This document shows, piece after piece, positions 4,201 to 59,377 of a DNA stretch of 59,377 bases. How positions within the stretch are numbered: the first letter of the stretch is position 1; each line of letters starts with the position of its first letter. The stretch is from a virus. The position numbers were made by a program, and so were the translations under genes. Below the pieces are notes generated by a model. The model had not been told where the DNA came from. It did not search any database and worked only from the letters and a program-made list of their open reading frames with translations. Location: IMG/VR virus record IMGVR_UViG_3300044949_001207, positions 1 to 59,377 of that record, one strand, 5' to 3'.

Positions 4201-4221
4201 AAGAAACGGGAGGACACGACG

Positions 4222-9565: not shown

Positions 9566-9577
9566 ATTTCCGGCAAC
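9565..9577 (+). repeat. Start-associated repeat, degenerate copy 16
   Basis: Only GATTTCCGGCAAC remains; the leading GCG is replaced by the TAG stop of the 8702 gene (9563-9565). The ATG at 9588 follows after 10 nt, closer than for any other copy. Confidence 0.8.
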
Positions 9578-9587
9578 GGGGGACACT

Positions 9588-9671
9588 ATGAGTTTGTCTG
9601 AGTGGATCGGCATTAGCGTCGGTGCCGTAACGATTTTCTGTGTGCTTACTGGGGTGGGGTTCCGCCGATGA
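9588..9671 (+). CDS. Small single-span membrane peptide, 27 aa
   Basis: The short frame codes a peptide made almost entirely of one transmembrane helix (WIGISVGAVTIFCVLTGVGF) with a short basic end (RR). GGGGGA precedes ATG 9588 by about 5 nt. The stop overlaps the next start (ATGA at 9668). The role is unknown; size and topology would fit a toxin-like or membrane-sensing peptide. Confidence 0.55.
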   Translation: MSLSEWIGISVGAVTIFCVLTGVGFRR

Positions 9672-10111
9672 CTGAGCAAGACGAGCGGTCTATCTATATC
9701 GACCACCTCCGCCCGTATGCAGATGCGGCGTGTGCAAAGGTCGAGACCATGCTGCAGGACATAACCACATGCGACCCGATGTACATTGTGTTTACGGAGA
9801 AGGAATCCGAGGCGCTGATGGACGCCTTGCGTGGAGCATTTCATGTGGACTGCAGCAAGGTGTTTACGCAACGCGGCGGGCTGAGGTACGTCAAGACACA
9901 CCTAACCACAACCCGCGATACGGAACTCCTGGCTGGCATCCTGTTCTATGATTCACTGGCTGCGTTTCAAGAGGGCGAGACATTCGTGCTCCCGCTCAGC
10001 AGGGCATGGACGCTGCCGATTGCATTGCTCAATCCCGGCATGGCACTGCGTGGATACAACAGGCTTGTAGTTCCCGACCTGCACATCTACGAGGGTGACG
10101 AAGATGTCTGA
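9668..10111 (+). CDS. Hypothetical protein, 147 aa
   Basis: Unrecognised soluble protein with mixed helix and strand. It has an acidic N-terminus (MTEQDERS) and C-terminus (YEGDEDV). It is coupled to the small membrane peptide upstream and overlaps the recombinase start by 8 nt downstream, so it may be co-expressed with the recombinase. Confidence 0.65.
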   Translation: MTEQDERSIYIDHLRPYADAACAKVETMLQDITTCDPMYIVFTEKESEALMDALRGAFHVDCSKVFTQRGGLRYVKTHLTTTRDTELLAGILFYDSLAAFQEGETFVLPLSRAWTLPIALLNPGMALRGYNRLVVPDLHIYEGDEDV

Positions 10112-10877
10112 CAGGCAGGCTATCTGCTACGGATACGGCAGGCATTCCACCAACAAGCAGGAGCTGACCAGGGAGGTGCAGGAGTTCCGCACCTACGACC
10201 ACTGGGAGCGGAACCTCAAGGATAAGGGGATCGTCTGGGGTGGGTTCTTCTATGACCCAGCAACCTCTGCCCGCATCCCGTTCAGTGAGCGGCAGCATGG
10301 GCGGATACTGCATGCCGTCGCCCAGCCAGGCGACCACATCCTGGTCACCAAGCTCGACCGTCCATTCCGCTCCCTGCGTGACGGCATCGTCAGCATGGAG
10401 CAGTGGTCGGATCGCGGCGTCATCTTCCACAGCCTCGACCTCCAGGTGGACACCAGCACCCCGCTGGGGAAGTTCTTCCGGACGATCCTGCTGGCAGTTG
10501 CTGAGCTGGAGCGGGAGTTCACCAGGGAAAGAACCAGGGAGACCGTCGAGCTGCGGAAGCGGGCGGGCCAGCCGTACTCCACTGGCTGTCCTGTCGGGTG
10601 GCGGATCGTCGGTGAGGCACCGCATCGCCGCTACCGGACGGACGAGGACGAGCGGGCGCTGGTGGATGAGATGGCTCGACTCCGCGATGACGGTGCGTCC
10701 TACGATGACCTGGCCCTGTGGTCGATGAAGCAGCAGTCGCTGCCGTGCAAACGCACATTCCCGACGCGCGGCCAGACCAAGTGGGCAATCAACGCGCGGC
10801 GGGCTGGCTACCCCAAGATCGCGAACTACAAGGTCTTCAATCGGATGGTGTCGCGCGGCGAGATCAAGGTGCGTTAG
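10104..10877 (+). CDS. Serine recombinase (resolvase/invertase family), 257 aa
   Basis: The N-terminal catalytic domain is clear. The YGRHS motif supplies the nucleophile S15, VTKLDRPFRSL gives R86 and R89, and the long E helix starts LAVAELEREFTRERT. A C-terminal region of about 100 residues follows (YRTDEDERALVDEMARLRDDGASYDDLA...) in place of a simple resolvase HTH, but it is far shorter than a large phage serine integrase. The enzyme should cut and rejoin DNA at short paired sites. It is the last gene of the repeat-punctuated block, and its stop overlaps the stop of the convergent sigma-like gene (10874-10877). ATG 10104 is chosen over an upstream GTG. Confidence 0.85.
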   Translation: MSDRQAICYGYGRHSTNKQELTREVQEFRTYDHWERNLKDKGIVWGGFFYDPATSARIPFSERQHGRILHAVAQPGDHILVTKLDRPFRSLRDGIVSMEQWSDRGVIFHSLDLQVDTSTPLGKFFRTILLAVAELEREFTRERTRETVELRKRAGQPYSTGCPVGWRIVGEAPHRRYRTDEDERALVDEMARLRDDGASYDDLALWSMKQQSLPCKRTFPTRGQTKWAINARRAGYPKIANYKVFNRMVSRGEIKVR

Positions 10878-11395
10878 GGCAGATCGCTCTCTGCCAGACG
10901 CAGGATTTCGATGGCCCTGTTCACCCGTTTGGCAATTGTCCGCGGGTCGCAGCTGTGCTCCTGGCTGAGCTGTTCGAGCGTCACCTGTTCGATCAGCCGG
11001 TCTTCGAGCAGATCCCGGTCGGCTGCACAGAGGATGCGCAGCGCCCTCAGCGCACGCATCTCCTGCCTGGTGCGGCTGCGGTTTGGCACCGGCTCCAGGA
11101 TCTTGTCCACCGGAACGTACCGACCGTCCTGCTTCTGCTGGTTCAGCACCTCCCGGTACAGGGCATGCCGGATGGCCGACCCGAAGTAGGTGGTCGGCAG
11201 ACTTTTCTCAGGCCGGTAGGTGAACGCAGCCAGGGTGATCGCCTGGTACGCAACCGACTCCAGGTCTACGCGCTTGATCGATGCGCGTAGGTCGTAGTTC
11301 TTCTTGACGAAGGAGGCTATCGACGGCTGCACGAAACGCATTGCCTCTTCGGCAATCAGTCGCTGCTTAGCCGTCAGCCTGCGGCGACGGGTCAT
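10874..11395 (-). CDS. Sigma-70-like transcription factor, 173 aa
   Basis: The central segment (VDLESVAYQAITLAAFTYRPEKSLPTTYFGSAIRHALYREV) matches the region 2 pattern of sigma-70 factors. The C-terminal part (DRDLLEDRLIEQVTLEQLSQEHSCDPRTIAKRVNRAIEILR) matches region 4 with its helix-turn-helix. The protein would redirect host RNA polymerase to phage promoters, probably late ones. Start ATG overlaps the upstream stop (AATGA) with no ribosome site in front, so translation must be coupled. It converges tail to tail with the serine recombinase, sharing 4 bases and leaving no room for a terminator. Confidence 0.7.
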   Translation of the reverse strand: MTRRRRLTAKQRLIAEEAMRFVQPSIASFVKKNYDLRASIKRVDLESVAYQAITLAAFTYRPEKSLPTTYFGSAIRHALYREVLNQQKQDGRYVPVDKILEPVPNRSRTRQEMRALRALRILCAADRDLLEDRLIEQVTLEQLSQEHSCDPRTIAKRVNRAIEILRLAESDLP

Positions 11396-19465: not shown

Positions 19466-19703
19466 TGGTGACTCCCTCCATGAAGAAATTGGTGAGGTTG
19501 GTAGCGAACATGCCACGCAGAACGTCCAGCTCTGCGAGGACGCGGGTGATGTCACCCTTCATGCACTGCAGAGCTTGGTACACCCGCCCGTACTCCTCCT
19601 CGTCGTAGTAGACGGGCGAGGCACTGGACGCGATTGCGCGGGCAGACTCAGCAGCTGTGATCAGTCGAGCCTTGATCTCAAGCAGTTCCTGTGGGGCGAT
19701 CAT
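19215..19703 (-). CDS. Hypothetical protein with 250-bp 3' overlap, 162 aa
   Basis: The first ~78 residues are a believable helical domain (MIAPQELLEIKARLITAAESARAIA..., DITRVLAELDVLRGMFATNLTNFFMEGV). After that the frame is Gly/Arg/Ser-rich and coincides with the start of the 19199-19465 gene in another frame. The functional product may be only the first half, with translation simply running on to a distant stop. The ATG overlaps the annealase stop (ATGA-type junction). Confidence 0.55.
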   Translation of the reverse strand: MIAPQELLEIKARLITAAESARAIASSASPVYYDEEEYGRVYQALQCMKGDITRVLAELDVLRGMFATNLTNFFMEGVTNGLGVSDGRGAVGQVQDAQGGPSGEEVGTLQPSGAGGGVQEERPARKRRSRSQPRRNRKGDGGAEAGVGSGDGAGQVDSGAQA

Positions 19704-20365
19704 GCCGTCACCTCCTGAGCGTTCAGCTCATCCATCCGGTTCGCGGCTGCGTCCTCCATGGCACCGATGCAGTTGGGGTTCATGTCTCCGCCTTCGATCT
19801 TCTTTGCGATCTTTGCCAGGATGCTCTCGACCGCAGCCGGGGTCTTGGCAGCGGCGATGGCATCTCTCGCCAGCCGCTCCTGTGCCGCCCAGGTGGCGTT
19901 CGACGGAGCCTCCTCAGACTTCTCGACGGCATCGGCACCGTCCGCATCGTCCTCAGCAGACAGGCACAGCAATGCCTCCAGTGCCGTGCGCCGCATGTAG
20001 GACATGTGGGCCTTCAGCCGCTGGCTGTCATCGAACTGCTTGATGGGCAGCGTCGAGCTGAGGAACTCGTCGCCAAAGCTCAGCGTCGTGACCAGCGTCA
20101 CGCCCTCATCACTGACGCAGTACTCCTGCGACGGCACGACGCCGTGCTTGAGCAAGAATTGCTTGGTGCTGCGGTTGATGCTGTCGAGGGTCGAGTAGCG
20201 GTAGGTCACAGGCTTGCCGTGACGCACCACAGTCCCCTCAGCATCACGCACCACAGGCGTGAACTCACTCATCGCCTTCGCCAGCTGAGACATCAGCCGA
20301 GCGACGGACTGACTGCGCTCCCGGTAGACGGTCAGCTTCCTTGGCCTTGAGAACGAACTCTCCAT
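19700..20365 (-). CDS. erf: ERF-type single-strand annealing protein, 221 aa
   Basis: Residues about 25-140 follow the ERF superfamily pattern: LAKAMSEFTPVVRD, then YRYSTLDSINRSTKQFLLKHGVVPSQE, then VTLVTTLSFGDEFLSSTLPIK, then RLKAHMSYMRRTALEALLCLSAEDDADG. It should anneal complementary single strands made by the adjacent exonuclease. The C-terminal part is acidic to helical and ends near a possible protein-contact tail. GGGAGGGAAACTGAC precedes ATG 20365. Because such proteins tolerate very short homologies, this gene could drive exchange between the dispersed 16-bp repeats. Confidence 0.8.
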   Translation of the reverse strand: MESSFSRPRKLTVYRERSQSVARLMSQLAKAMSEFTPVVRDAEGTVVRHGKPVTYRYSTLDSINRSTKQFLLKHGVVPSQEYCVSDEGVTLVTTLSFGDEFLSSTLPIKQFDDSQRLKAHMSYMRRTALEALLCLSAEDDADGADAVEKSEEAPSNATWAAQERLARDAIAAAKTPAAVESILAKIAKKIEGGDMNPNCIGAMEDAAANRMDELNAQEVTA

Positions 20366-20366
20366 G

Positions 20367-21287
20367 TCAGTTTCCCTCCCTCATGTAGTGCGGAACCTCC
20401 AGCTCATGCTCCTCGCCATACCCAGACGGGAGCCACGAATCCCACTCACGGCGCTGCTTCAGTTCGGCAAGCAACGCCAAGCATTTCCGCCGTCCGCGCT
20501 CTTGCAGATCGGCAGGCAGATAGACCACCGCACAGAGGTGCGGCCAGACGTTCGAGGTGAAGATGAACCGCATGGCATGCGGCTCCCATCCACACTGGAT
20601 GGCGGCTTCCCCGTACATCGCGGACTGAAGGTCGTAGTGCCACTTCCGCATCGCCAGCATGGCGGTCTTCTGCGGGTCGGCCTCCGACGTTGTCTTCAGA
20701 TCGTAGAACTTGCTGGCCGTCGCACCGTCGATGCGGCTGCGGCAGTCATGGCCGTTCCACCGAAAGCGGACGTTGAACTCCCGATCCACAGACTCATCAA
20801 GCAGTCGGGCAGCGGCCTTGTTCGCCAGGATCTGACGAGTCTGATTCCAGAGCTGAGCGCGGTCAGCTGGGCTGACGATGATCGCTCCCTCAGGTTGCTC
20901 AGCGATCCATGCCTTGGCGGCTTTGCCAACCTGTCCTGTTGGAGTCAGGAGGTCATCGCTGGGGCAAGCAACCCTGCTCCAAAAAGTTTCCTCACCGACC
21001 TCCGCCCAGAGGTGCAGGAGAGTCCCGTATTCAAGAGATTGTCCTCTCTTGGCAGGGGCTGACCCGGCTATGTGCCGGGCGTAGAATTCGAGCGGAGAGG
21101 CGGCGAGCGCCTTGAGCTGCGAACAGGAGACCTCAGACCAGCGGTGGTAATCCTCCGCTGGCGAATGGCAGACTGTGACCGAATCGTTTGTGACTAGCGG
21201 CGGCCGGACTTGAACCGGCGACACCCGGCTTATGAAGCCGGGTCGCTTGTCACCCTCAATTCGGTCGGGGTTTGTCCCGACCGTCAT
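20367..21287 (-). CDS. PD-(D/E)XK exonuclease (RecE/DUF3799-like), 306 aa
   Basis: The catalytic core is visible: GTLLHLW (H92), REFNVRF, RIDGAT (D187), YDLKTT (D196, K198), and a QSAMYGEA helix after it. It would chew one strand of duplex ends for the ERF annealase directly downstream. GGGAGG lies 6 nt before ATG 21287, and no later in-frame ATG precedes the conserved part; only GTG at codon 22 is available. Codons ~14-31 (PVQVRPP) are a translated tRNA 3' half, so the attP core is inside this gene. Integration should separate the promoter, ribosome site and start codon from the rest. Confidence 0.75.
   Translation of the reverse strand: MTVGTNPDRIEGDKRPGFISRVSPVQVRPPLVTNDSVTVCHSPAEDYHRWSEVSCSQLKALAASPLEFYARHIAGSAPAKRGQSLEYGTLLHLWAEVGEETFWSRVACPSDDLLTPTGQVGKAAKAWIAEQPEGAIIVSPADRAQLWNQTRQILANKAAARLLDESVDREFNVRFRWNGHDCRSRIDGATASKFYDLKTTSEADPQKTAMLAMRKWHYDLQSAMYGEAAIQCGWEPHAMRFIFTSNVWPHLCAVVYLPADLQERGRRKCLALLAELKQRREWDSWLPSGYGEEHELEVPHYMREGN
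21195..21243 (-). other. attP core candidate: 3' half of a tRNA with CAU anticodon
   Basis: On the minus strand, 21241 to 21195 reads as a perfect tRNA 3' half. It has anticodon stem CCGGC, loop TTCATAA (anticodon CAT at 21234-21232), stem GCCGG and variable loop GTGTC. T-stem GCCGG with loop TTCAAGT and CCGGC follows, then the seven acceptor bases CGCCGCT and discriminator A. The matching 5' acceptor and D arm are absent upstream. It lies 185 bp from the integrase start. A tRNA 3' half next to a tyrosine integrase is the classical attP signature. Confidence 0.8.
21262..21283 (-). other. Perfect 8-bp inverted repeat just inside the exonuclease start
   Basis: CGGTCGGG, six-base loop, CCCGACCG. 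In the leftward mRNA it begins one base after the AUG of the exonuclease gene. It could modulate translation or be an integrase/excisionase arm site beside the attP core. No U-run follows, so it is not an ordinary terminator. Confidence 0.6.
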
Positions 21288-40500: not shown

Positions 40501-43418
40501 CTGATAATCCGGATGCTTGTGACCCGCTGCTCACCCGTCCCGCTGGCTATTTCGGCGGCAGTCCAGGTCAGCGTTTGCCCAGAGACAGTGCCAGCATTTG
40601 CCGTGAGCGACAGCACTGGCAGGAATGTCCGCGTCCCCGCCGTGACACTGCCCGATACCTGGGCTGCGGTGTACAGATCATTGCCAACGGTGTAGGTGTT
40701 GATCGCCGTGATGGTGCAGACCTGAGCGGAGGTCGTGTCGTACAGCTTGCGACCAACGGCGATGAAGCTACTCAGGGTGGCGGTGCCAAAGTTGATGCCG
40801 TAGGTCGTGCCGCTCGAACCCTCCGACGAAGACACAAACCCTCCCACCGTTGCCGAGGGGTCGATGGCGACATCCCGCATTTTGTCCAGGGTGATGGATG
40901 TGGCGGTTCTCGACAGCACCTGGGAGAACGGCTGCAGGACACCGCTATCCGCACAGGTAATGACATCCCCGACGTTCACCTGCAGGCCGGTCGAGTCCAG
41001 ATTCGTGAGCACAGCACCGGCATTCTGGACGTTCGAGGTGTAAGTGAACTCCGTCGATTGCCCGCCCGCCGTCATGACGCCGTCAAACTTCAGGGACGCA
41101 GTGCTCTCCGCAGACGAGATGCTGCGCTTGAGCAGCGTCACCGAAGCCGTGTCGCCAGTGCGGTATCCGGTGCCGGGAACGTCGATGTACTGGTTGCCAG
41201 CCAGGGTATTCGGCGGGCCTGCGGGCGTGAGATCGTCAGGCTCCGACGCCTCGAACACAAATGTGGCGAACCGCGAAGCATTGCTGAACGCTGCGTGGCT
41301 ACCCTTGATCTTCGATTCGCGAACCGCCGTGTTGTAGTCCTGGGTCTGCGAGTATGGATTTGCTTGGTAGAACCGGATGGCAAAGGTAGTTCCCCTCTCC
41401 CACCCCGCACCGGGATCTACGACCTGAACTGTCTGGGAGTCGGGATTGCTGCTGGCGCTATAGAAGTCAACAATCGGGCGAGGCGTCACCCCAGAGGTGT
41501 GCCACCAGGCAAGGCGATTCGACTGCGACTCCTTGACGGAGAAGGGGAGGTTGTAGCTGCCGTTGTCCGTCGAGGTCGTGACCCAGGAGTCGGGGCAGAA
41601 CGACAGATTGACTCGCACCACCGGGTAGCGGAAGTTCGGTGCCGTGGAGTTCTGCTTGTTGACGGTGGCATACGACATCTTGCCGGTGGCCGATGACAGC
41701 CTGGCCTTGAGTGTCGGCGTCAGGGTGACCAGGATGTATGGCCGACCGCCATTCGCGGCGTCGTAGTAGACGGGAACGTCCTGCCGCTTCCACTGGGAAA
41801 TGCCGGTAATCAGATTCCCTGTGCATGTCCAAACGCTGAGGCTGGAGTAGTCGGGCCAGTACACATCCGCCCGGCGATTGATCGCCTTGCCGCTGCCTTG
41901 CGTGGATACGGTGCCGGTGTAGCCAAACGCCAACGTCTTGCCCGATGCCTGCAGACCGGCGTAGGTCTTGTTCTCCGAGCTGTTCTTGACGTTTGCCTGG
42001 CTTCCGGCCCAGTACTCGCCGTACAAATAGGTCTGCCACCCAGCCTTCAGGTAGGCATACTTGACCGGCTCAACAGTGGACGTTGGGGTGGTGTATCCGT
42101 TGCGGGAGAAGGTGCCGAGTCCGTAGCTGTACGCTGCCGGGGAGAACGTCAGTGTGGCCTCAGCACCGCGGCCCACACCCCTTGTCGTTCGCAGCGGAAC
42201 GGAAGCCCGGAACCGCTTGGTCGTGGCATCCCACTGGGCATCCGCGTATCCGATGTCGGTGCTGGAGCGGAACTGGACGAAATACGATACGCCAACCGCA
42301 GGAGTCCACTGCTTGGACAGCGTCAGGACTTTCGTGCTTTCGTTGATGTCCAGGACGCGAATCACCGCTCCGGAGGCAAATGCGGTCGGAACAGTTCCGG
42401 AGTAGACCGTTGCAACGTCACCGACGTTGATGCCAGCAATCGACTCGACCGTCATTGCGGTCGTGGCCGAGCTGGACTGAACGGCGACGGTGCGGGTCGA
42501 GGCGCTGACCGCGGACGCAAGATACATGATCTTGTTTCCGGTCAGGGTGTTGGCGCTGCCGTAGGTTTCCGACTCTGTCGGGGCCGTACCGGAGACAGTG
42601 CCTGGAACGGTGCCGAGGAAGCCCTGCACACCTGGGTCGGTCTCCAGGTTTCCTATCGCCCGAAATCCGGAGCCGATCTTGTCGGAGCCAACGACCACCT
42701 TGGGGAAGCTCTTGTATCCGGCACCGCCGTCAATCACATCGACGCCGACAAGGTTTCCAGCCTGGACGATTGCCTTGACCTTTGCTGGCCGCGACGGATC
42801 ACCGCCGTCCACCGTTATCGTCGGCGGCCCCCAGTACGACCCGCCCCCAGAAAGAACGTCTACGCTCTCCAGGAAATAGCCGGTGCCGCTGGGGTCTACC
42901 TGCGGTGCCGACGCAGGTGCGTCAACTCCCATGCTCACGGCGACATTCGCGATGGAGCCTGGGCGGTACATGACGGGCCGAGCACCATGCCCGTAGAAGA
43001 TGAACAGCCTGCCGTGGCGATCCTCAGCGACACAGAAGTTTGTGATGTTCGTCAGGCCGCTTGGGGAAATCTCCTGCTGGTTGATGACCCGCTCTTGGAA
43101 CCCCTGGATTCTGCGAACGACCCACACATCCTTTTCGGGGAATTCATTGGCGGCGATCTGAGCTGCTGTCAGCTCCCTGTCGATTCGCAGCTTCTGGAAA
43201 CACAGGAAATCGGTGGCATCGTTCACCAGGGTATCCCGGCGGTACAGGCCGTATATGCCCTCGTCATCGTATTTGCCATACAGCTTCAGGATGCCCTGGC
43301 GGGAGATCAGCATCCCATCCCGACGCGGCTGAAGATTGACCAACGCACGCAGCTCGCCCTTCCGCAGCAGATACTGCGAGGAGTTCTCATTGAAGCCGAG
43401 CCACTGCGTTATTTTCAT
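37563..43418 (-). CDS. Giant tail nozzle/tubular-B-type protein, 1951 aa
   Basis: The N-terminus (ITQWLGFNENSSQYLLRKGELRALVNLQPRRDGMLISRQGILKLYG) has the pattern of podovirus tail nozzle proteins (tubular protein B, gp12 of T7). The position directly after the adaptor also fits. Those proteins are usually 600-900 aa, so this one is more than twice as long. Inserted beta segments recur with a V-x-V-x-x-G-x-G-Y-x-x-x-P pattern (about 186-206, 226-245, 1010-1050, 1120-1150, 1540-1560). These may be carbohydrate-contacting surface domains. The nozzle-like propeller sequence resumes about residues 1200-1500 (ELKWTLSGANPPARADMVELWRTS..., MTDEELFDSDRPNYAAMPVV). Confidence 0.7.
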   Translation of the reverse strand: MKITQWLGFNENSSQYLLRKGELRALVNLQPRRDGMLISRQGILKLYGKYDDEGIYGLYRRDTLVNDATDFLCFQKLRIDRELTAAQIAANEFPEKDVWVVRRIQGFQERVINQQEISPSGLTNITNFCVAEDRHGRLFIFYGHGARPVMYRPGSIANVAVSMGVDAPASAPQVDPSGTGYFLESVDVLSGGGSYWGPPTITVDGGDPSRPAKVKAIVQAGNLVGVDVIDGGAGYKSFPKVVVGSDKIGSGFRAIGNLETDPGVQGFLGTVPGTVSGTAPTESETYGSANTLTGNKIMYLASAVSASTRTVAVQSSSATTAMTVESIAGINVGDVATVYSGTVPTAFASGAVIRVLDINESTKVLTLSKQWTPAVGVSYFVQFRSSTDIGYADAQWDATTKRFRASVPLRTTRGVGRGAEATLTFSPAAYSYGLGTFSRNGYTTPTSTVEPVKYAYLKAGWQTYLYGEYWAGSQANVKNSSENKTYAGLQASGKTLAFGYTGTVSTQGSGKAINRRADVYWPDYSSLSVWTCTGNLITGISQWKRQDVPVYYDAANGGRPYILVTLTPTLKARLSSATGKMSYATVNKQNSTAPNFRYPVVRVNLSFCPDSWVTTSTDNGSYNLPFSVKESQSNRLAWWHTSGVTPRPIVDFYSASSNPDSQTVQVVDPGAGWERGTTFAIRFYQANPYSQTQDYNTAVRESKIKGSHAAFSNASRFATFVFEASEPDDLTPAGPPNTLAGNQYIDVPGTGYRTGDTASVTLLKRSISSAESTASLKFDGVMTAGGQSTEFTYTSNVQNAGAVLTNLDSTGLQVNVGDVITCADSGVLQPFSQVLSRTATSITLDKMRDVAIDPSATVGGFVSSSEGSSGTTYGINFGTATLSSFIAVGRKLYDTTSAQVCTITAINTYTVGNDLYTAAQVSGSVTAGTRTFLPVLSLTANAGTVSGQTLTWTAAEIASGTGEQRVTSIRIISGGRNYNTPPTIITKGGGNGYGLAVTPTVSDGKVTSVEIVDPGRAYTAQPELYTDSTAATAVPVMRPAMRGKYRCAYRYADRSETQVATCTLNSLRGESPTTVVLSSTVGVEPGVILESPRLPPNTRVLSRNQGQVELNQPASGVGPLGRVVVENGGSGYALDEAVTCTVTGASNAVLSVRLAANDYGSYSVKEVVVTSAGTGMLGVGKIAVQFSPPAAGGSTASGYAAIDRFDTSASYDRSVIVRDMTKPIAYSDFSPIFDVDAGPNDERDHCSELKWTLSGANPPARADMVELWRTSADQSLVFYRLEAYGVPSDSGVEIVGTDTMTDEELFDSDRPNYAAMPVVLPNGNVNAYRFGVPRSDMSVCVAFQDRLWYAVTTSGEARNTLFYSEFDEFESCPDVNDLPIQNNQRATDSITALVPFGSLLLAMQHMHTYGVTYNTDPSIDSSIQMLSHRGCLHQRCWDIHENTLYAVDENGIYSLSRSGEILPISDPIRDYFTSELIDFSKRESFFLTICPRTHILRFFFCMAAQSEDTPTHALCYDIPRKAWWTERYPNSFCSAVTGRPGITRINSSIYGAVDGNLYEFSDDKDHANQTLTHCVVTSVGSGYNESPEITCPSSKGVQLKGVVSEGRLVDILVLSGGWDCKWGVQLLAENGSPLAGHDGKNIKGVEYAPINLDIAAPSGAGAQAAAVAHFSVTTRLARDVTVSEGESFVRIASFVTNPILTNPIPLLTTEDGDLLDANGGDIDGVPLQTEPPPVEIGMEAIGDYLPLNCFVSKIIGQDIYLEHPDGTAVSMLGGDVRTGQSTGGTRTIVYFRKPFYTHIPFRLATGALQLANEDNVAKGGDSLIDRSITLVYAPTPSDKEVEIIEYFNDSSTPRPNIMRRSRGGPQGFTHRQDSASTVLNTSRNASNLGIATGVAKAKFASRVYTDMVGEDQHVQVELLGRPLSANGGEDRVPHKFVMHSLAINGVIENGE

Positions 43419-44557
43419 TGCAGATCCTGCTGCAGCTGCGAATGCCAGCCCATGGAGCGGGGAGTCGGGTAGTAGCCCCCAGGTGGCCTGCCGGAAAGCG
43501 GGGCCACGACATCGTTCTCCATCGCAATCCTCAGGTCGCGCACATAGGTCTGCATCGCGGCGTCATACGGCTTGCCAGCGATTCGGGCGTACCACATCTC
43601 CGCGGCAGAAAGGATCGCCGTGTACATCTGTGGGGATGCGTCCAGAGGGTCTGAGATGGAGTACTTGGTCAGCGCCGGGAGTCCGGTGACCACATCGACC
43701 GTCATCGATGTGGTGCTGGTGACATCGACAACGGTTCGCTCGACCCGGTACGGGGTCAGGGAGCCAACCGGCTCAGGCTCCGTAGTAGTCGTGCCAAACC
43801 GAATGATGCAGCCCTCCATCGCTGCACGAAACCCGGTGCCGTCGCCAGTGACGGTCGTGCCTGACGCCGAGACAGTCCCCCTGCGGCAGGGATGTTCGTA
43901 CCCCATGAACGCAATAGCTCTGGGGATATAGCGGTATGTGTAGTGGACGGTAGTGCCGTTGGCGGGTATGCCGACGAAGCGGATCTGGTAGCGATCCGGA
44001 TTAGCGTCCGACCGCATGATGGTGTAGTAGTACGGCTCACCTGTGCCGCGGGTGTTGACCTCCAGCCGCTGCCACTCCTGCGGCGACAGGTAGCAGTGCA
44101 GGGTGCCGACAGTGTGCGTGACGAGGGTGTCGATGTCCTTGAGATCGGCGGGCAGATCGTAGAACGTCTGCATGGTGAGGGTGAGCGGCAGTTCACCGGC
44201 CTGGATGTTTCGCTTAGCCGTCTTGTCCACCGTAATGACGTTGCCCTGGATGGAGACAATCCGGCACGGCTCATCAAAGAAGTCGCCGCAGGCCACAAGA
44301 CGGCCAACGACCATCTGCGCGGCGCTACTCAGCGCCACTGTGCGAGACCCCTCTGTGATGCCGTTTGAAATTACCGTCGCCGTGACGTTGGCAGACACGA
44401 ACGAATTCGTCTTGGTGTGCCACAGCCACTGCTTGCACTGCATCACATCGCGGACGCCATTCACGACGGCCAGCCGCACAGCCTGGTGTTCGCCGTCCTG
44501 AGCGCCGCCGCCAGTGGCGGCAAGCAAGTAATCGACAACGTCCTGGGCAGTGTTCAT
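43415..44557 (-). CDS. Tail adaptor / tubular-A-type protein, 380 aa
   Basis: The start MNTAQDVVDYLLAATGGGAQDGEHQAVRLAVVNGVRDVMQCKQWLWHT and the YDLPADLKDIDTLVTHTVGTLHCYLSPQEW segment match the helical frame plus beta insert of adaptors that sit beneath the portal (tubular protein A, gp11 of T7). The C-terminal helix (MYTAILSAAEMWYARIAGKPYDAAMQTYVRDLRIAMEND) fits as well. It is longer than T7 gp11 because of a beta-rich insert (about 220-300). It precedes the nozzle gene as expected. Confidence 0.7.
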   Translation of the reverse strand: MNTAQDVVDYLLAATGGGAQDGEHQAVRLAVVNGVRDVMQCKQWLWHTKTNSFVSANVTATVISNGITEGSRTVALSSAAQMVVGRLVACGDFFDEPCRIVSIQGNVITVDKTAKRNIQAGELPLTLTMQTFYDLPADLKDIDTLVTHTVGTLHCYLSPQEWQRLEVNTRGTGEPYYYTIMRSDANPDRYQIRFVGIPANGTTVHYTYRYIPRAIAFMGYEHPCRRGTVSASGTTVTGDGTGFRAAMEGCIIRFGTTTTEPEPVGSLTPYRVERTVVDVTSTTSMTVDVVTGLPALTKYSISDPLDASPQMYTAILSAAEMWYARIAGKPYDAAMQTYVRDLRIAMENDVVAPLSGRPPGGYYPTPRSMGWHSQLQQDLQ

Positions 44558-45162
44558 TTGTGCTTCCTGCCGTACTTGGCTACCACCATCTCCCGCAGCT
44601 CACCGCTTTTCATGGTCGGGTGACGCTGAGACTCGACCCGCATCATCTCCCTGGTCAGCCGCTCACTCAGCGCCTTGCGCTTGGGGGCGACTTGATGCCC
44701 CTTGTGCTCGACCGCACCGGACACCGTCAGGTTGCGGTCAATCGCGACCCGCTTGATATCCGCGGTGCTGTCCACCCAGGCGGCAGGGTCTGCCGGGCCT
44801 CGACGGTCAGCCAGTGAGCTGGCGTAGTACTTGCCGCTAGGATTTATTCCGGCCCGCTTTGCGGCGGCGATGATCTGGCGGGCATGGTCGGGAGGCATCG
44901 CGTCCAGCTGCTGGTTGTTGTACCGGCCCTGCATGTAGGCCCGATCCGTCCCCTTGACCCCTGGCGGTTGCTGCAGCGCGCACATCTCCGCCCATTTGTG
45001 AGATAGGCCTTCTGACCGCAATCGTTCGTACATTTCCAATGCGTCCCTTCCAGCCAGGCGGATGCTTGCTGGAACGTCTACTGTGTCGCTGGAGGTATCT
45101 GAGGGCATTCCGTACTCCTTCAATGCAGTCGCCAAGGCGGGCCAATCCGACGTTGCACTCAC
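44554..45162 (-). CDS. Conserved virion-associated protein, 202 aa
   Basis: The block GINPSGKYYASSLADRRGPADPAAWVDSTADIKRVAIDRNLTVSGAVEHKG is of a kind I have seen in structural modules of many environmental podoviruses, between portal and adaptor. The function is unknown. The C-terminus is helical and basic (RLTREMMRVESQRHPTMKSGELREMVVAKYGRKHK). ATG 45162 lies inside the 3' part of the endonuclease VII frame. Confidence 0.65.
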   Translation of the reverse strand: MSATSDWPALATALKEYGMPSDTSSDTVDVPASIRLAGRDALEMYERLRSEGLSHKWAEMCALQQPPGVKGTDRAYMQGRYNNQQLDAMPPDHARQIIAAAKRAGINPSGKYYASSLADRRGPADPAAWVDSTADIKRVAIDRNLTVSGAVEHKGHQVAPKRKALSERLTREMMRVESQRHPTMKSGELREMVVAKYGRKHK

Positions 45163-45340
45163 GACAAATCAGCCCGCGAACAGCTCCTGTGGCGTGGCAG
45201 TGGTCAACAAAGTTCCCAGGCTTGATGCGGCATATCTCGCACTTCCCCTTGTTTTTGGCCTGCATGGCCTCAAACGACGCTAGGGTGATCCGGTATCTCA
45301 CCCACAGGTTGGCGCGGCGTTTGTTGATGTCCGGTGCCAT
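44837..45340 (-). CDS. Recombination endonuclease VII-like HNH protein, 167 aa
   Basis: Residues 30-75 (GKCEICRIKPGNFVDHCHATGAVRGLICRECNVGLARLGD) are a clear endonuclease VII core: CxxC zinc ligands, DHCH active site and CRxCN. T4 endonuclease VII resolves branched DNA during packaging, and free-standing relatives can act as homing nucleases. The ORF continues ~80 residues beyond the core as Arg/Gly/Pro-rich sequence overlapping the next gene by 326 nt, so the functional protein may be only ~90 aa. It sits directly behind the portal gene (TAATG). Confidence 0.75.
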   Translation of the reverse strand: MAPDINKRRANLWVRYRITLASFEAMQAKNKGKCEICRIKPGNFVDHCHATGAVRGLICRECNVGLARLGDCIEGVRNALRYLQRHSRRSSKHPPGWKGRIGNVRTIAVRRPISQMGGDVRAAATARGQGDGSGLHAGPVQQPAAGRDASRPCPPDHRRRKAGRNKS

Positions 45341-47364
45341 TACGCAACCGGGGGCTGCAGCTCAGGAGGGACTTCGGGCGGCATGTCCGCAGGAGGTGAA
45401 CCAGCATCCGCCCCCCCAGCGACCGGCCCACCGGAGGGAGGTTGCGGCGGCGGCGCTGGGGGAGGCGGAGGTGGGAGAAGGTATGGGGTGACATCGATGT
45501 CCAAGGAATCCGCCCAATCTTTCATCAAGGCGTTGAAAGGATCGACAACACCGGCACCGACGAGATTGGAAAGGATCGGCCCAAGCGTCTGAACGCTGAG
45601 CTGCATCTGTTCGACGCGCGTTGCCTTGTTGGGCTTGCGGGCGCTTCCGGCCTCGACGCGGTACAGGAAGTCGCGCGTCAGGCGAACGATGTCCTGCTGA
45701 GCCACCGTCTGCTGCCATGCAACCGCGCCAAGCGGGCCGAGCACAGGGGCAACGTCCTGGGGTTCGAGCAACCACCGCACAGCCAGAGCCTCTCTCCTGG
45801 CGAGAAGGCCCATGCAGTCTTCGAGTTCGTTCGCCATGTTGTCCGGACGAACGCTGATGTTTTCGTTCTTGATCTGTGCTTCTGCGGCACTGCGGAACTG
45901 GTTCCTTGTGTAACCGTACACCAGCTCAGAAAGCCCGGTGCGCTGGGCGAACTGATCCATGATCGCGGAGATGATGTCCCACAGATCCCGCGTCACTTGC
46001 GGGAATTGGAAGACCGACATCACATCCTCAATGCGTCGGCCCAGCAGCTCAGAGAGTTCGATGATCTTAAAGCCACCCTCAGACGGGGCGAGGATCTGAT
46101 CCTTGATCGTCTGGTCAGCGGCCTTCTGCACCGCCACCATGGTCTCGCAGCTCGTCGCGATCCTGGTCGCCAGGAACGAAAAGCACCAATTCAACAGCCG
46201 CAGCTCACCAATGGCAGGGCGAATGTGGCTCACCGGCCAGGCGTACCCAGGCTTCCAGTGGAACGCCAAGCCCGTAAACGGCCATCCATTCGGGTCGGCG
46301 TAGAACGGGATGGGCCAGGCCACCCTTGGCAGCAGGCTCTGCGGGATGCCCAGCTGCTCGTCCACCTCTTCGTCCATCACCGCAGGCGGGACGTTCAGCG
46401 GGTAGTGGACGCCTTCGCAGATCACCAGATAGCAGTACTTGCCGAGGGAATCGAATACCCCCTTCGACTCTTTCGGGGCATCCTTGAGCCTGTCGCCCAT
46501 TCCCGTCTTCGACCAAATCTTGTAGAAGGTGACGAGCTGGTTGGTGTTCTCGACCTTCTTCTTGCGAGGCTCCCGGCCCAGCTTGTGGTCTTCCCGGTCA
46601 AAGTGCTTCTGGAGATCCTCAACCGGGACGCCGTAGGTTTCCGCGACTTCCGCCAGCGGGCGAACGCACTTGCGGGCGCACCAGAGCATGTCATCGGCAT
46701 TGTCGAAGTCGGGGTCGATGAGGAGGTTATCGACGGTGTCGTAGAAGCTACCGACCATCTTCATCGGCGGGGTGCTGCCGTCGCTCGAAGTGTCGAGCAC
46801 AACCAGCTCCGTCCAGAAAACACCCATCCCCTTGATCATCGCCTCATTCACGACCTTGCGGGCCTGCCGCTTCAGGTCGAGTTCCTGGCAATTCCAGTTC
46901 AGGTAGCTCTGCATCAGCTGGGCGGCGATCTTCCGCTGTGCCTTGCCGCGGATCTCGCCCTCGACCACCTGGATGATTTCCTGCTGCTCAGGCGACGGCA
47001 TGCCGTTCTCGCCCGCAGGCTCCGCCAGGCCAAACTGCTCGAAGGGCAGCTCAGGGTGCTCCATCACCGTCACTGTGCGGACGGGATTCCGGTGATAGAT
47101 CACCGACGCAAAAATCTCGACCAGCTCAAACACCTTGTTGAGCTGCATCCGAAAGCTGGGCGGGGCGATGGACGAGTTGTACCCGCGCTCGCCGCGGGCA
47201 TACCCGTCCTTCCACATCCAGTTGTGCTCACCATCGAAGAACTGCGAAGCCTCCTTCGCGTCCTCCGTAAACGACTTTTTGTAATCTGTCGCTGCTTTGA
47301 GCTTTTTGACCCAGGTCGCAACGACCTGTCGCAGCGGATTACTTGTCGGCAGTGTTTCGGCCAC
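45340..47364 (-). CDS. Portal protein, 674 aa
   Basis: The protein has the length and segments of podovirus-type portals: N-terminal EDAKEASQFFDGEHNWMW, SFRMQLNKVFELVEIFASVIYHRNP, a central AMIKGMGVFWTELVVLDTS, DNLLIDPDFDNADDMLWCARK and the long stem helix region RTGLSELVYGYTRNQFRSAAEAQIKNENIS. It ends in a proline-rich tail (PPPPPPAPPPQPP). It forms the 12-fold ring at the packaging vertex. The GTG at 47364 follows GAGAAGACCAACA and overlaps the small gene upstream by 26 nt. Confidence 0.8.
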   Translation of the reverse strand: MAETLPTSNPLRQVVATWVKKLKAATDYKKSFTEDAKEASQFFDGEHNWMWKDGYARGERGYNSSIAPPSFRMQLNKVFELVEIFASVIYHRNPVRTVTVMEHPELPFEQFGLAEPAGENGMPSPEQQEIIQVVEGEIRGKAQRKIAAQLMQSYLNWNCQELDLKRQARKVVNEAMIKGMGVFWTELVVLDTSSDGSTPPMKMVGSFYDTVDNLLIDPDFDNADDMLWCARKCVRPLAEVAETYGVPVEDLQKHFDREDHKLGREPRKKKVENTNQLVTFYKIWSKTGMGDRLKDAPKESKGVFDSLGKYCYLVICEGVHYPLNVPPAVMDEEVDEQLGIPQSLLPRVAWPIPFYADPNGWPFTGLAFHWKPGYAWPVSHIRPAIGELRLLNWCFSFLATRIATSCETMVAVQKAADQTIKDQILAPSEGGFKIIELSELLGRRIEDVMSVFQFPQVTRDLWDIISAIMDQFAQRTGLSELVYGYTRNQFRSAAEAQIKNENISVRPDNMANELEDCMGLLARREALAVRWLLEPQDVAPVLGPLGAVAWQQTVAQQDIVRLTRDFLYRVEAGSARKPNKATRVEQMQLSVQTLGPILSNLVGAGVVDPFNALMKDWADSLDIDVTPYLLPPPPPPAPPPQPPSGGPVAGGADAGSPPADMPPEVPPELQPPVA

Positions 47365-47668
47365 TGTTGGTCTTCTCAGCGGACTTGGCGGGTTGCATCA
47401 GTTCGCGGAGGGTGGCCGTTCCTGGTGTGAACTGCCAGCATCCCAGTTCGTGCCAACCATGGTCGCCCAGGAGGTCAGGGTCACTCTTGTGGTGAACGCT
47501 GTTTCGCTGAACGAATCCGGCTGTGGTGAACGTCAGGATGCTTATGGTCGTGTCACCCACTCCAATTACCCAGCCAACCGCCGGGTCGGAGAATCCCCTC
47601 AGGTCGTTGCTGTAGAGGACGCAATCCCCAAGGGACGGAACGGGCATTTTCCACTCAGTTGAAGTCAT
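47339..47668 (-). CDS. Hypothetical protein between TerL and portal, 109 aa
   Basis: Unrecognised. It begins MTSTEWKMPVPSLGDCVLYSNDLRGFSDPAVGWVIGVGDTTISILTFTT, a small beta-barrel-like pattern often seen in short phage proteins next to the portal. Overlaps both neighbours slightly, which fits co-translation. Confidence 0.6.
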   Translation of the reverse strand: MTSTEWKMPVPSLGDCVLYSNDLRGFSDPAVGWVIGVGDTTISILTFTTAGFVQRNSVHHKSDPDLLGDHGWHELGCWQFTPGTATLRELMQPAKSAEKTNSGRNTADK

Positions 47669-49388
47669 TTCTGTCTCCTTGCGGGCCTAAGAATACATAG
47701 CTGCCATGCTGGTCTGTCAGCCGCTTTTTGCGGTCGGCCTGCCACTTCACCCACCATGGATCTGGCTCTTTGTATTGGGGCGGCGGCTTGTGGTAACGCG
47801 GGCGATATGCGCAGAGGTACTCAAGCGTCTGGCACAAATGCACCTCGCCCCTGGTGTTCGGCTTGTCGGTGACGATGGCCGCGCCGGAAACGTAGTTCAC
47901 CAGCTTCCTGTAGCGCTTGATCTCCCGCTCCAGGTCGGGGCAGCTGTTGGAAAGCACCCGCAGGATCGGGGTTCCCTCTGGGCGGATGTGCATGGCCGTC
48001 CTGGTGGCCTCCATACGGGCGGGGATGTCATCACACCCGGCAAGAAAACTGGCCCCTGTGATCTGGCTGCGGATGCCCCGCTTGACGAGCTGCTCTGTGT
48101 ACTGCTCGACGGGGAGGCGACCGGAGCCGATGTCTCTCAGCCTGCCGCCGTGGGCATCGATGAGGAACGCATGGAAGTGCCAGCCCTTGACCTTCTTCTC
48201 GAACTCCTCACCAAAGATGACGGCATTGGACTGCCTGAGGTAGAGCTGGTCGTACACCAACCAGAAGTCCTCTGACGGCGGGACGGCGGCGAACAGGACA
48301 GCCGTCACCGCATGGCCTGGGTCGATGACCGCGTATCGCGTCCAATCATGGGGGATCTGGCTATCGGGCAGGTCAGACCGGCTCATCCCATGAATCCGCA
48401 TGTCGAAGTTGGGATAGCACAGGACGGAGTCGGTGATGAAGTCGCCCTCAGCCCGCATGCGGAGAACGTCCTCACCGGCAGCTGCCCACCGCTCCAACGA
48501 CTTCCGCTTCTCATCGTCATCGATGTAGGGGTTGTCCAAGAACCGGAGCTTGAACAGCCGGATGTTGGACTTGTCGCCCAGAGCCTGCTCACTGGCGTCG
48601 GCCCGCTCCTTGAGAGAGAGCAGGGCGTTATTGGTCGAGTGCGGCATAGCCGACCAGCAGAAGACACCCTTGCGGTCGGACAGACGGGCCTGGGCTTCGG
48701 GGATATGCCGCTCGTCGTTCAAGTCCTCATCGACATGAATCCGATCCGCTTGATACCCCTGCGCTGGCTCACCCTCAGACGAGAAGAAGTGGATCACCCA
48801 ACCATTCACAAGGGTGCATTGCTGGATGTAGTTGGCGCTCTTGAGCACCCAGCTGGTGGACTTGATCATCCGCTTGGGGATCAGCGGCGGAGCTGGACGC
48901 GACTCGCCCTTGCGGTGCTTGTCCTCGACCGGATTGAACGCCCGCCACTCGCCGGTCTGCTCGTCCTTGATGATCCGGAACGCCCCCTTATTGAAGAGCA
49001 TCGGATACACCACCAGGCCGATGTGCTTCCAATCCCGACCAATGATGATGAGGATGCCGTTCTCTTTGGGGTACTTGTTGAACGGGTCTTGCCCCGTCAC
49101 CGCCCTGGCGTCCTCCACGAAGGTGCAAAGACTCTTGCCGGATCGATTGCCGCCGATCACCAGGATTTCACTGGCCTTGCACTTGTGGATCTCCTCCTGC
49201 TGCGGGTTCGGGCGGTACAGCCTTAGCGCTTCGATTCGCCTTTCGCGGAGTTCGTTTTGAATGTCCTTGAGGCCGTCCCGCTGGAACTGCGTCAGGGATG
49301 GCGTCTGCGGGATCGCAGGCGGGGAGACCTTCGGGTGCCGAGGCTGGCGTTTCCGCGGTGAGCCGCCGGGGTTCTTCTGCTTTGACAT
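47655..49388 (-). CDS. terL: Terminase large subunit, 577 aa
   Basis: The ATPase has Walker A GGNRSGKS (about 78-85) and Walker B RIHVDEDL (about 216-223), followed by CWSAMPHSTNNA (motif III/C region). The nuclease domain begins YAVIDPGHAVTAVLFAA (first catalytic Asp) and continues with HAFLIDAHGGR (second acidic residue). It packages DNA into the prohead with the portal. AAGGGGACAACCATCA precedes ATG 49388. The length is normal for the family. Confidence 0.9.
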   Translation of the reverse strand: MSKQKNPGGSPRKRQPRHPKVSPPAIPQTPSLTQFQRDGLKDIQNELRERRIEALRLYRPNPQQEEIHKCKASEILVIGGNRSGKSLCTFVEDARAVTGQDPFNKYPKENGILIIIGRDWKHIGLVVYPMLFNKGAFRIIKDEQTGEWRAFNPVEDKHRKGESRPAPPLIPKRMIKSTSWVLKSANYIQQCTLVNGWVIHFFSSEGEPAQGYQADRIHVDEDLNDERHIPEAQARLSDRKGVFCWSAMPHSTNNALLSLKERADASEQALGDKSNIRLFKLRFLDNPYIDDDEKRKSLERWAAAGEDVLRMRAEGDFITDSVLCYPNFDMRIHGMSRSDLPDSQIPHDWTRYAVIDPGHAVTAVLFAAVPPSEDFWLVYDQLYLRQSNAVIFGEEFEKKVKGWHFHAFLIDAHGGRLRDIGSGRLPVEQYTEQLVKRGIRSQITGASFLAGCDDIPARMEATRTAMHIRPEGTPILRVLSNSCPDLEREIKRYRKLVNYVSGAAIVTDKPNTRGEVHLCQTLEYLCAYRPRYHKPPPQYKEPDPWWVKWQADRKKRLTDQHGSYVFLGPQGDRNDFN

Positions 49389-57212: not shown

Positions 57213-57353
57213 TTCCAGGAATTGGGGGGCCGGGGCTTCGGGCCTGCCGCCACCCGCCGCAACTCCAGCCGCCGCCGCCGGTTGCGACGGTGCCGGTGGA
57301 GCCGCATGCCCCCTCGACCCGCGCACGCCCGCGACGGTCGTGTGCCGCCCCTC

Positions 57354-57368
57354 CGGATTTCCGGCAAC
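57354..57368 (+). repeat. Repeat copy 17 (15 of 16 bases)
   Basis: CGGATTTCCGGCAAC preceded by C instead of G. It is the first of four copies without genes between them, and the most upstream copy in the block. Confidence 0.85.
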
Positions 57369-57415
57369 GACTCTTCTGCGCTTCTCTTCGCGCGCTGACG
57401 GCGGCTGACCCGTCT

Positions 57416-57431
57416 GCGGATTTCCGGCAAC
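57416..57431 (+). repeat. Repeat copy 18
   Basis: Exact GCGGATTTCCGGCAAC, 62 bp after the previous copy. No gene follows. Confidence 0.9.
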
Positions 57432-57457
57432 GCCCAGTGTCGGCGGTTCAACCCGCC

Positions 57458-57473
57458 GCGGATTTCCGGCAAC
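57458..57473 (+). repeat. Repeat copy 19
   Basis: Exact copy. It starts a longer duplication: 57459-57491 is repeated at 57506-57538 with one base change, so this unit was recently duplicated. Confidence 0.9.
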
Positions 57474-57504
57474 GGTGATTCGGCAGCGGTCAACGGAGAC
57501 CGCA

Positions 57505-57520
57505 ACGGATTTCCGGCAAC
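57505..57520 (+). repeat. Repeat copy 20 (first base A)
   Basis: ACGGATTTCCGGCAAC, 48 nt before the ATG at 57569. The downstream half of the duplicated unit 57459-57491. Confidence 0.85.
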
Positions 57521-57568
57521 GGTGATTCGACAGCGGCACACGCCGCACAACTCAACGGGAGACATGTC

Positions 57569-57658
57569 ATGTCCGTTCGTCAAGTCTGGCAGGCGCTGGT
57601 TGCTCTTGGATTCTCCAACTCTGAGGCCTTTGTGCTGGCGCTGAAGTACGCGGGCTAA
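57569..57658 (+). CDS. Very small peptide, 29 aa
   Basis: The frame MSVRQVWQALVALGFSNSEAFVLALKYAG has GGGAG at 57558-57562, 6 nt before ATG 57569, and ends seven bases before a repeat copy, as real genes in the block do. The product would be an amphipathic helix. An earlier out-of-frame ATG at 57564 gives an unattractive peptide. It is the first gene of the rightward block. Confidence 0.5.
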   Translation: MSVRQVWQALVALGFSNSEAFVLALKYAG

Positions 57659-57664
57659 GCCCCT

Positions 57665-57680
57665 GCGGATTTCCGGCAAC
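57665..57680 (+). repeat. Repeat copy 21
   Basis: Exact copy, 6 nt after the TAA at 57656-57658. It is followed by the tRNA-like module rather than a gene. Confidence 0.9.
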
Positions 57681-57690
57681 GACACACATC

Positions 57691-57735
57691 AAGGGGTCGG
57701 ATAGGCCACATGACGGTTCGAGTCCGTCGCCCCTA
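57691..57735 (+). ncRNA. Minimal tRNA-like fold (acceptor plus T arm)
   Basis: Bases 57712-57728 form a perfect T arm: GACGG, loop TTCGAGT with the TTC and A/G of true T loops, CCGTC. It is followed by GCCCCTA (57729-57735), which pairs 6 of 7 with AAGGGGT (57691-57697, one G-U). Only 14 bases separate the 5' acceptor strand from the T arm, so D and anticodon arms are missing. It lies alone between two repeat copies. It may be a decayed tRNA or a tRNA-mimicking RNA. Confidence 0.45.
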
Positions 57736-57741
57736 CTTCCT

Positions 57742-57757
57742 GCGGTTTTCCGGCAAC
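57742..57757 (+). repeat. Repeat copy 22 (GCGGTTTT variant)
   Basis: GCGGTTTTCCGGCAAC, one base off the consensus (A to T at position 5), 23 nt before the ATG at 57781. Confidence 0.85.
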
Positions 57758-57780: not shown

Positions 57781-58695
57781 ATGCAAACCACAATTCGGCG
57801 GCGGCGGCGGAAGTCGCCGGGGGATACGACAGCGTACCCCTATGTGGTCGAACGATTCGACTACAGGGTGGTTGTCCACTCGAAACACAAGGCTACGGTC
57901 TACGACTTGCGGGGCGGGGATACACGAATCCTCCCGCACGAAGTGACGGTCGCCAAACTGCTGGGCGAGGGCGACCTCAACCCTAAGACGGCGAAGAACG
58001 AAGTCGCCACTATGGGGCTGTCGCTCTACCCTGCGGACGGTGCGGGGGTCGGGAATGTCTGCCCCCTGTCGAAGTGGTGCCGTGTGCCATGTCTGGCACA
58101 TCAGGGGCAAGGGCCGGTGCCGTCCGTCAAGGCGGCGAGGGTGGCGAAGACGGTGTTGTTCAACGTAGTGAGGGATTGGTTTCTCGCCAAACTGAACCGG
58201 GAGTTGACCCGATTCCGACAGCGGGTGCCTGTCGACATGGTGGCCGGGGTGCGCCTGAACATGTTCAGTGACCTACGGTGGGAAGAATACGGGGTCATCG
58301 ACGCCCACCCCGACATAGCATTCTACGACTACACCAAACTGCCAGACCGGGCGGGGCAACTGCGCCCCAACTATTGGGTGACGTTCAGTTACGACGGCCA
58401 CAATTGGGCGGACGCTGAGCGCATCCTGCAGGCCGGGGGCAACGTATCGGTCGTGTTTTACAACGACACCGACAGGCCCGTATGCGGCAAAGCCGCGCAC
58501 CGTCAAACCCTGCCGGATTCGTGGCGCAAGTATCGGGTCATCGACGGCGGGAAAAGCGATTGGCGACCGGGCGATCCGCGCGGGGTCATCGTCGGCCTGC
58601 GACTACTCGCACGCACCTACGCTTCGCGGCAGTCTGCAATCGACAGCGGGTTCGGGGTGCTGGCCGATGGATGCCAAATGGCGGCGGCTGCCTGA
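57781..58695 (+). CDS. GP88-like phage protein (DUF7227 type), 304 aa
   Basis: The sequence matches the GP88 family of mycobacteriophages and other phages in its order of motifs: NPKTAKNEVATMGLSLYPADG, then VCPLSKWCRVPCLAHQGQG (three cysteines), KAARVAKTVLF, VRLNMFSDLRWEE, IAFYDYTKLPDR, PNYWVTFSYDG, GNVSVVFYND and YRVIDGGKSDWRPGDPRGVIVGL. Biochemical function is not established; the clustered cysteines suggest a metal centre. CTGGAGCAACCACA precedes ATG 57781. The stop touches the next repeat copy. Confidence 0.75.
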   Translation: MQTTIRRRRRKSPGDTTAYPYVVERFDYRVVVHSKHKATVYDLRGGDTRILPHEVTVAKLLGEGDLNPKTAKNEVATMGLSLYPADGAGVGNVCPLSKWCRVPCLAHQGQGPVPSVKAARVAKTVLFNVVRDWFLAKLNRELTRFRQRVPVDMVAGVRLNMFSDLRWEEYGVIDAHPDIAFYDYTKLPDRAGQLRPNYWVTFSYDGHNWADAERILQAGGNVSVVFYNDTDRPVCGKAAHRQTLPDSWRKYRVIDGGKSDWRPGDPRGVIVGLRLLARTYASRQSAIDSGFGVLADGCQMAAAA

Positions 58696-58736: not shown

Positions 58737-59039
58737 ATGGACTACTATCCGGACGAACATGGGGCAACCTGTATCTGCCCAGACATGCCGCGTCGGCGGT
58801 TCGAGGCCAACGCTGAGGCTATCCGCCAACGGCACGGCTTCCTGACCAAGTCAGACCTGGCAGACATCGTCGGCTTTGACCGGCTGCGCAAGGTGCTGGT
58901 GCGGTGCGGCGGCTGTCGGTTCGTGGCAGCGGCGCAGGATGTCGCCCACCTGATGCGGTGCATTGAGGCGGGCGGGGACTATGTCCGTGATGTGTCGCTG
59001 CCTGTGGGCGACCCGATCTACACCGGCCACCGATCCTGA
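58737..59039 (+). CDS. Hypothetical protein, 100 aa
   Basis: Begins MDYYPDEHGATCICPDMPRRRFEANAEAIRQRHGFLTKSDLADIVGFDRLRKVLVRCGGCRFV. It holds CIC and CGGC cysteines and a helix-turn-helix-like stretch (LTKSDLADIVGFDRLRKVL). The function is unknown. AAGGGGACACACGACC precedes ATG 58737. The last 31 codons (with stop) are duplicated at the left contig end (1-93). Confidence 0.65.
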   Translation: MDYYPDEHGATCICPDMPRRRFEANAEAIRQRHGFLTKSDLADIVGFDRLRKVLVRCGGCRFVAAAQDVAHLMRCIEAGGDYVRDVSLPVGDPIYTGHRS

Positions 59040-59045
59040 GGCTTC

Positions 59046-59061
59046 GCGGATTTCCGGCAAC
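59046..59061 (+). repeat. Repeat copy 24 (left arm of the variable module)
   Basis: Exact copy. With the next 8 bases it forms a 24-bp sequence (59046-59069) identical to 59279-59302 and to 100-123. The GTG at 59079 follows the 16-mer after 17 nt. Confidence 0.9.
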
Positions 59062-59078
59062 ACACAGTGGAGGGACAA

Positions 59079-59303
59079 GTGGAAACCATCAACGCTGAAG
59101 ACCTGGGGAAACGCGCCGCCACCGGCAGTAATGAGCTGCTGGTCAGCATGCCTGACCTTCACCTGTTGTCCGAAATCGCGCGGCTGACCAAGTCGGTTGC
59201 AAGTTTCGGCGGCGCGGTGCTGCTGGCAGCGTACCAGGAGGAAGCACGGCGGCGCGGGTTCAAGGTGATTCGTGAACTGCGGATTTCCGGCAACACACAG
59301 TGA
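59079..59303 (+). CDS. Hypothetical protein of the variable module, 74 aa
   Basis: Begins at a GTG with GGAGGGACAA directly before it (GTG at 59067 in the same frame lacks such a site). The product is helical (ETINAEDLGKRAATGSNELLVSMPDLHLLSEIARLTKSVASFGG...) and ends RISGNTQ, the repeat at 59279 read in frame. It exists only in the right-end version of this locus; the left end lacks it exactly from repeat to repeat. Unknown function. Confidence 0.65.
   Translation: METINAEDLGKRAATGSNELLVSMPDLHLLSEIARLTKSVASFGGAVLLAAYQEEARRRGFKVIRELRISGNTQ
59279..59294 (+). repeat. Repeat copy 25 (right arm of the variable module)
   Basis: Exact copy forming the end of the 59079-59303 gene, 20 nt before the ATG at 59315. 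The sequence from 59279 to the window end equals 100-198. Confidence 0.9.
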
Positions 59304-59314
59304 GGAGACAACCC

Positions 59315-59377
59315 ATGGCAACGCCATTGCCAACACACATCACGACATGCCCAGACTTCAAGACCGACCACCTCCGC
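59315..59377 (+). CDS. Hypothetical protein, 5' part (second copy of 136-486)
   Basis: First 21 codons of the same gene as 136-486, cut by the contig end; identical base for base to 136-198. It shows where the contig closes on itself. Confidence 0.85.
   Translation, partial: MATPLPTHITTCPDFKTDHLR

Follow-up and report, generated by a model that had tools for sequence, protein, structure and literature searches.

The window analysed here, a 59,377-base IMG/VR record, comes from an uncultivated phage, and its two ends carry the same stretch of DNA in two versions. Specifically, the left-end overlap (positions 1 to 198, + strand) lacks a module that the right-end overlap (58947 to 59377, + strand) contains: positions 1 to 123 equal 58947 to 59069, and positions 100 to 198 equal 59279 to 59377, as exact maximal matches within the window and with no mismatch. 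At the right end, the 24-bp repeat GCGGATTTCCGGCAACACACAGTG flanks the variable module on both sides (first copy at 59046 to 59069, second at 59279 to 59302), and at the left end a lone copy is found at 100 to 123; all three are exact matches on the + strand. The right end is longer by 233 bp, measured from repeat start to repeat start (59046 to 59279). The first-pass annotation had described the left end as having the same flanks, one 24-bp copy and 233 bp fewer, and the exact matches bear this out. Since the flanks are free of mismatches, chance is excluded as the origin of the overlap and, given the matching ends, the contig is essentially a closed circle with an indel inside the overlap.

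Three genes, all on the + strand, are found around this indel. The upstream gene A (58737 to 59039, 100 aa) has the same 3′ end in both versions, and its stop at 59037 to 59039 (equivalent to 91 to 93) lies ahead of the repeat; the downstream gene B (136 to 486, 116 aa) starts at position 136, past the repeat, and therefore both genes are intact in either version. The variable gene M (59079 to 59303, 74 aa) is an orphan open reading frame, with no homologue in PHROGs, Pfam, isolate phages, viral contigs or relatives. It looks like a coding gene, because its GC content by codon position (0.66/0.45/0.73) agrees with that of the adjacent genes. Gene M had been placed between identical repeats; identical they are, but the last codons of the gene lie inside the second copy, and its TGA stop (59301 to 59303) uses the last two bases of that repeat. 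A close search of viral contigs for homologues of A, M and B returned none other than those of two relatives, G002 (gene B, 61%) and G003 (gene A, 73%).

The 24-bp sequence belongs to a larger array. Its 16-bp core, GCGGATTTCCGGCAAC, occurs in about 24 copies within one 11-kb early-gene region, all on one strand: 20 exact copies are found on the + strand and none in reverse, and a few more carry one or two mismatches. The array spans the contig ends, from 57353 to 7482. It opens with six leader repeats (57353 to 57757, + strand), five of them with no gene start behind, ahead of the first array gene (57781 to 58695, + strand), which encodes a 304-aa protein of the Pfam GP88 family and is conserved at this position in G002 and G003. 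Beyond the contig join, the remaining array (100 to 7482) includes 15 copies, 14 of them exact and the other with a single mismatch, all in the same orientation. Most copies sit in the gap between a gene's stop and the ribosome-binding site of the gene that follows, usually 32 to 55 nt ahead of the start codon. When up to one mismatch is allowed, there are 23 copies, and 15 of these have, 30 to 56 nt further on, a Shine-Dalgarno sequence, a start codon and an open frame, against 3.0 expected at shifted positions, and only 2 of 5000 shifts were as good.

RNA structure was considered as a function of the repeat and rejected: at the two module-flanking copies the predicted folding was no better than that of shuffled sequence. 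Rfam and tRNA searches of the window gave no match. A separate segment at 1284 to 1476, which occupies the place of a gene between the repeats at 1247 and 1501, is predicted to form a structured RNA with a 16-bp closing stem (z −5.9 versus shuffles) and belongs to no Rfam family. No similar DNA was found in isolate phages, and among other contigs 23 contained one 16-mer each and none an array.

The positions of the contig ends bear on whether the module-less junction is real. Between the contig start and the repeat lie exactly 99 bp, and the contig end lies 99 bases from the first base of the repeat, counting that base. Assuming a word length of 99, the contig's final word would be the point at which the two versions merge; with a word length of 123, the first word would be the point at which they part; neither word length accounts for both ends. 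Either way, the contig seems to break at a branch met by the assembler. Such a register between ends and repeat is what a de Bruijn assembler would produce at a real branch, which argues against a blind jump. According to the main rival explanation, gene M is always present and the junction without it was produced by chimeric library molecules or by an assembler join over the 24-bp repeat. Repeats of this length can template-switch in PCR, assemblers err at contig ends, a single contig of the phage covers the region, and chimeric library molecules could also create a branch of this kind. On the other hand, the distance of 99 to the repeat points to a real de Bruijn branch, k being about 99 (or 123 for the left end), and so large a word length cannot cross a 24-bp repeat without reads spanning it; gene turnover in the same slot of relatives, described below, speaks against an artefact as well. 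We regard an artefact as rather unlikely, and both versions as quite probably present in the sampled population. No second contig of the same phage across the region of the indel was found in the collections searched. Elsewhere in the genome, the 4,780-base contig L032 (sample 3300042470) matches positions 43154 to 47933 of the window at 100% identity and is therefore apparently the same phage assembled a second time.

The two copies at the two contig ends could also be taken for unequal terminal repeats, both versions being permanent parts of one linear genome. However, the array and the operon continue unbroken across the join, and phage terminal repeats remain identical, because replication and packaging copy one from the other; this explanation is most improbable.

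Portal homologues were found in 54 contigs, the nearest of which include G002 (86% in the portal protein) and G003 (81%). The core motif of the window was absent from all 17 relative records searched. G002 and G003 nevertheless have the same layout as the window with different motifs: G002 carries its own repeat, CGAACTAACGGCAAGGG, in 13 copies, and G003 another, TGACCCCGCGACATAGCA, in 12 copies. In both, the repeat often opens with the TGA stop of the gene before, and several copies are located in the GP88 leader. Over 15 bases of the core, the copies within one genome are 96 to 98% identical, against 34 to 63% between lineages (63% for the window and G002, 34% for the window and G003), and a resemblance beyond chance was detected only for the window versus G002 (P 0.0014). 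Where borders correspond between the phages (GP88, A, C, D, E and behind B), each carries a version of the repeat of its own, which suggests co-evolution with a binder. In four larger relatives from which stretches were fetched (G004, G007, G012 and G013), no repeated 12-mer of the array kind was found.

The gene order behind GP88 is GP88-A-M-B in the window and GP88-A-X-C-E in G003; in G002, GP88 is followed by a 67-aa gene, B and, later, D. Hence, in these three phages, shared genes keep their order and the genes between the repeats vary. Gene X of G003 (74 aa) gave at best a marginal alignment with M, as 9 of 500 shuffles were as good, and the two are not convincingly related. A search of bacterial genomes returned no GP88 relatives. 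Two further GP88-bearing contigs, L110 and L111, were considered as array carriers and discarded, having no such repeat; they end in tandem repeats with a period of about 70 bp (L110, 5826 to 6022; L111, 10950 to 11158), directly behind the GP88 gene.

A second phage group was found by a search with the DUF932 gene of the window (2339 to 3220), and it carries another start-associated repeat, TGATTGTTCGG. In L116 and L136, which are 98% identical over 9 kb, the L116 gene at 9400 to 9668 is swapped for an unrelated one in L136, and homology returns exactly at the repeat (9670 and 9672, respectively); a second replaced segment of L136 ends at the repeat at 8022. Similarly, in L114 and L115 (93 to 97% identical) a replaced segment ends at the repeat (9714 and 9713). 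The swapped segments of L116 and L136 have the repeat on one side only; their left borders coincide with the start codon, and borders other than the repeat therefore exist. Moreover, evidence of this type is weakened by the fact that an alignment is expected to end at a conserved motif whenever two adjacent genes differ.

Other features were noted in the contigs of this search. A 740-bp stretch of L136 (18730 to 19469) is mostly missing in L116; inspection by eye shows in it a gene for a GP88-like protein and a repeat-like site, and its left border does not coincide with a repeat. A strong hairpin, CCGTGCTGCGGGCGTTCCGCAGCACGG, often follows the repeat (L113, 5408 and 5765; L118, 5705; L119, 6832; L121, 3884), resembling a small non-coding cassette. 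Five more DUF932-bearing contigs (L127, L128, L131, L134 and L137) were set aside, since their repeats resemble intergenic promoter or operator pairs and not start-associated copies.

As for proteins that might act on the repeats, the annealase and exonuclease genes noticed at first reading (19700 to 21287) were confirmed by homology: an Erf-like single-strand annealing protein (19700 to 20365, − strand; phrog_155, E 5e-18) and an exonuclease VIII-like protein (20367 to 21287, − strand; phrog_412, E 6e-36), both candidate recombination helpers. The two genes also occur in relatives where no repeat array was found.

Beyond the array, the window encodes a resolvase-family serine recombinase (10095 to 10877), and the repeats could accordingly be imagined as sites dedicated to this or another site-specific recombinase, in a gene-cassette system. 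The repeat core CGGATTTCCG is nearly palindromic and every copy is directly repeated, which speaks for such a system. Homologues of the recombinase (65%, 54% and 38%), however, are present in relatives where no such array was found, which makes a dedicated recombinase less likely; in addition, the near-palindrome is missing from the motifs of G002 and G003, and the 24 bp shared at the event exceed the motif length, as favoured by homology-driven exchange. We consider such a system very unlikely. Next to this gene, the sequence at 10874 to 11395 (− strand) weakly matches phrog_1740 (E 6.5e-4), a family of phage RNA polymerase sigma factors, and is conserved in other related phages at 62 to 72%. 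Both the recombinase and the sigma-like protein were dismissed as array-specific factors, their homologues being present in relatives where no array was found. Also in this part of the window, positions 8702 to 9565 match a queuine tRNA-ribosyltransferase (phrog_887) that was not found in the fetched relatives.

In conclusion, the explanation that we favour, and hold to be reasonably probable, is that lineage-specific repeats, probably regulatory, double as short homologies for the precise deletion or insertion of one gene. The early operon would be punctuated at its gene borders by some two dozen near-identical 16-bp copies on the same strand, and their primary role would probably be regulatory, through a trans-acting binder of lineage-specific specificity, in the manner of the Cluster A repressor and its stoperators. 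As a by-product, these copies would act as short direct repeats at gene borders, so that homologous recombination or single-strand annealing could remove or bring in exactly one gene and leave its neighbours unharmed. The contig ends would represent one such event, involving a 233-bp unit with gene M whose flanking copies share 24 bp, and both versions would most likely coexist in the sampled population. Among the 22 neighbouring repeat pairs, the event pair has the longest exact match (24 bp), tied with one non-coding pair. This agrees, if weakly, with an exchange governed by the length of homology, since the chance of the event pair having the longest match is about 1 in 17 to 1 in 22. Recombination between start-associated repeats, already proposed in the first-pass annotation, is thus partly supported, by the exact repeat-to-repeat junction, by this longest match and by the slot and gene swaps in relatives. 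No repressor or repeat-binding protein was recognised among the proteins scanned. A broader reading, a general cassette system in which each lineage has its own repeat, kept uniform by concerted change, and repeat-plus-gene units are so mobile that one population holds several versions, appears doubtful to us.

If both versions are real, a single natural population has been caught gaining or losing exactly one gene at a repeated border sequence, which in isolates had been seen only by comparing finished genomes. In addition, lineage-specific repeats at matching borders offer a way to search for the protein that reads them.

Among known systems, the Start-Associated Sequences (SAS) of Cluster K mycobacteriophages are 13 bp long, include AGGAG and lie 3 to 7 bp from the start codon, and their companion inverted repeats vary by subcluster (PMC3203893). 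The array resembles them as a short asymmetric repeat present in many copies at gene starts of the non-structural half, in one orientation (20 forward and none reverse, with 15 of 23 before a start codon). Unlike the Cluster K consensus GGGATAGGAGCCC with its Shine-Dalgarno core, the motif of the window has no AGGAG and the Shine-Dalgarno sequence follows it; the repeat is 16 bp long, about 20 bp from the start codon, and its copies often touch the upstream stop, several of them lying in a non-coding leader.

The stoperators of Cluster A number 24 in L5 and 34 in Bxb1; these asymmetric 13-bp sites are mostly intergenic, share one orientation with respect to transcription and differ in sequence by lineage (PMC3029335, PMC6550527). 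Our repeats are likewise asymmetric, mainly intergenic, in one orientation and lineage-specific in sequence, although 14 to 16 bp are conserved here versus about 13 bp, and GP88-family genes are found near the right genome end in Mycobacterium phages. In contrast, the copies described here all fall within a single early operon and keep a nearly constant spacing to the start codon, and stoperators are bound by a phage repressor, which the protein scan did not reveal here.

The closest parallel to the indel itself, a gene between direct repeats versus a single repeat and no gene, is provided by Cluster O, in which repeat-flanked genes present in one phage are reduced to a single repeat in relatives, as for Corndog gene 14, located between 17-bp direct repeats, and a 550-bp segment in Catdawg (PMC4351075). 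The window shares a direct-repeat-flanked stretch in one version and a single repeat in the other; the array repeat of Cluster O, however, is palindromic and untied to gene starts, and the variation there is between isolates, whereas here the two ends of a single assembly differ. Short homologies that serve as crossover points where modules meet are comparable, except that here one border sequence recurs about two dozen times per genome. Gene loss and gain by repeat recombination has already been described in a few cultivated phages, and the window represents a further case, from an uncultivated phage; what it adds is that both versions appear in one assembly.
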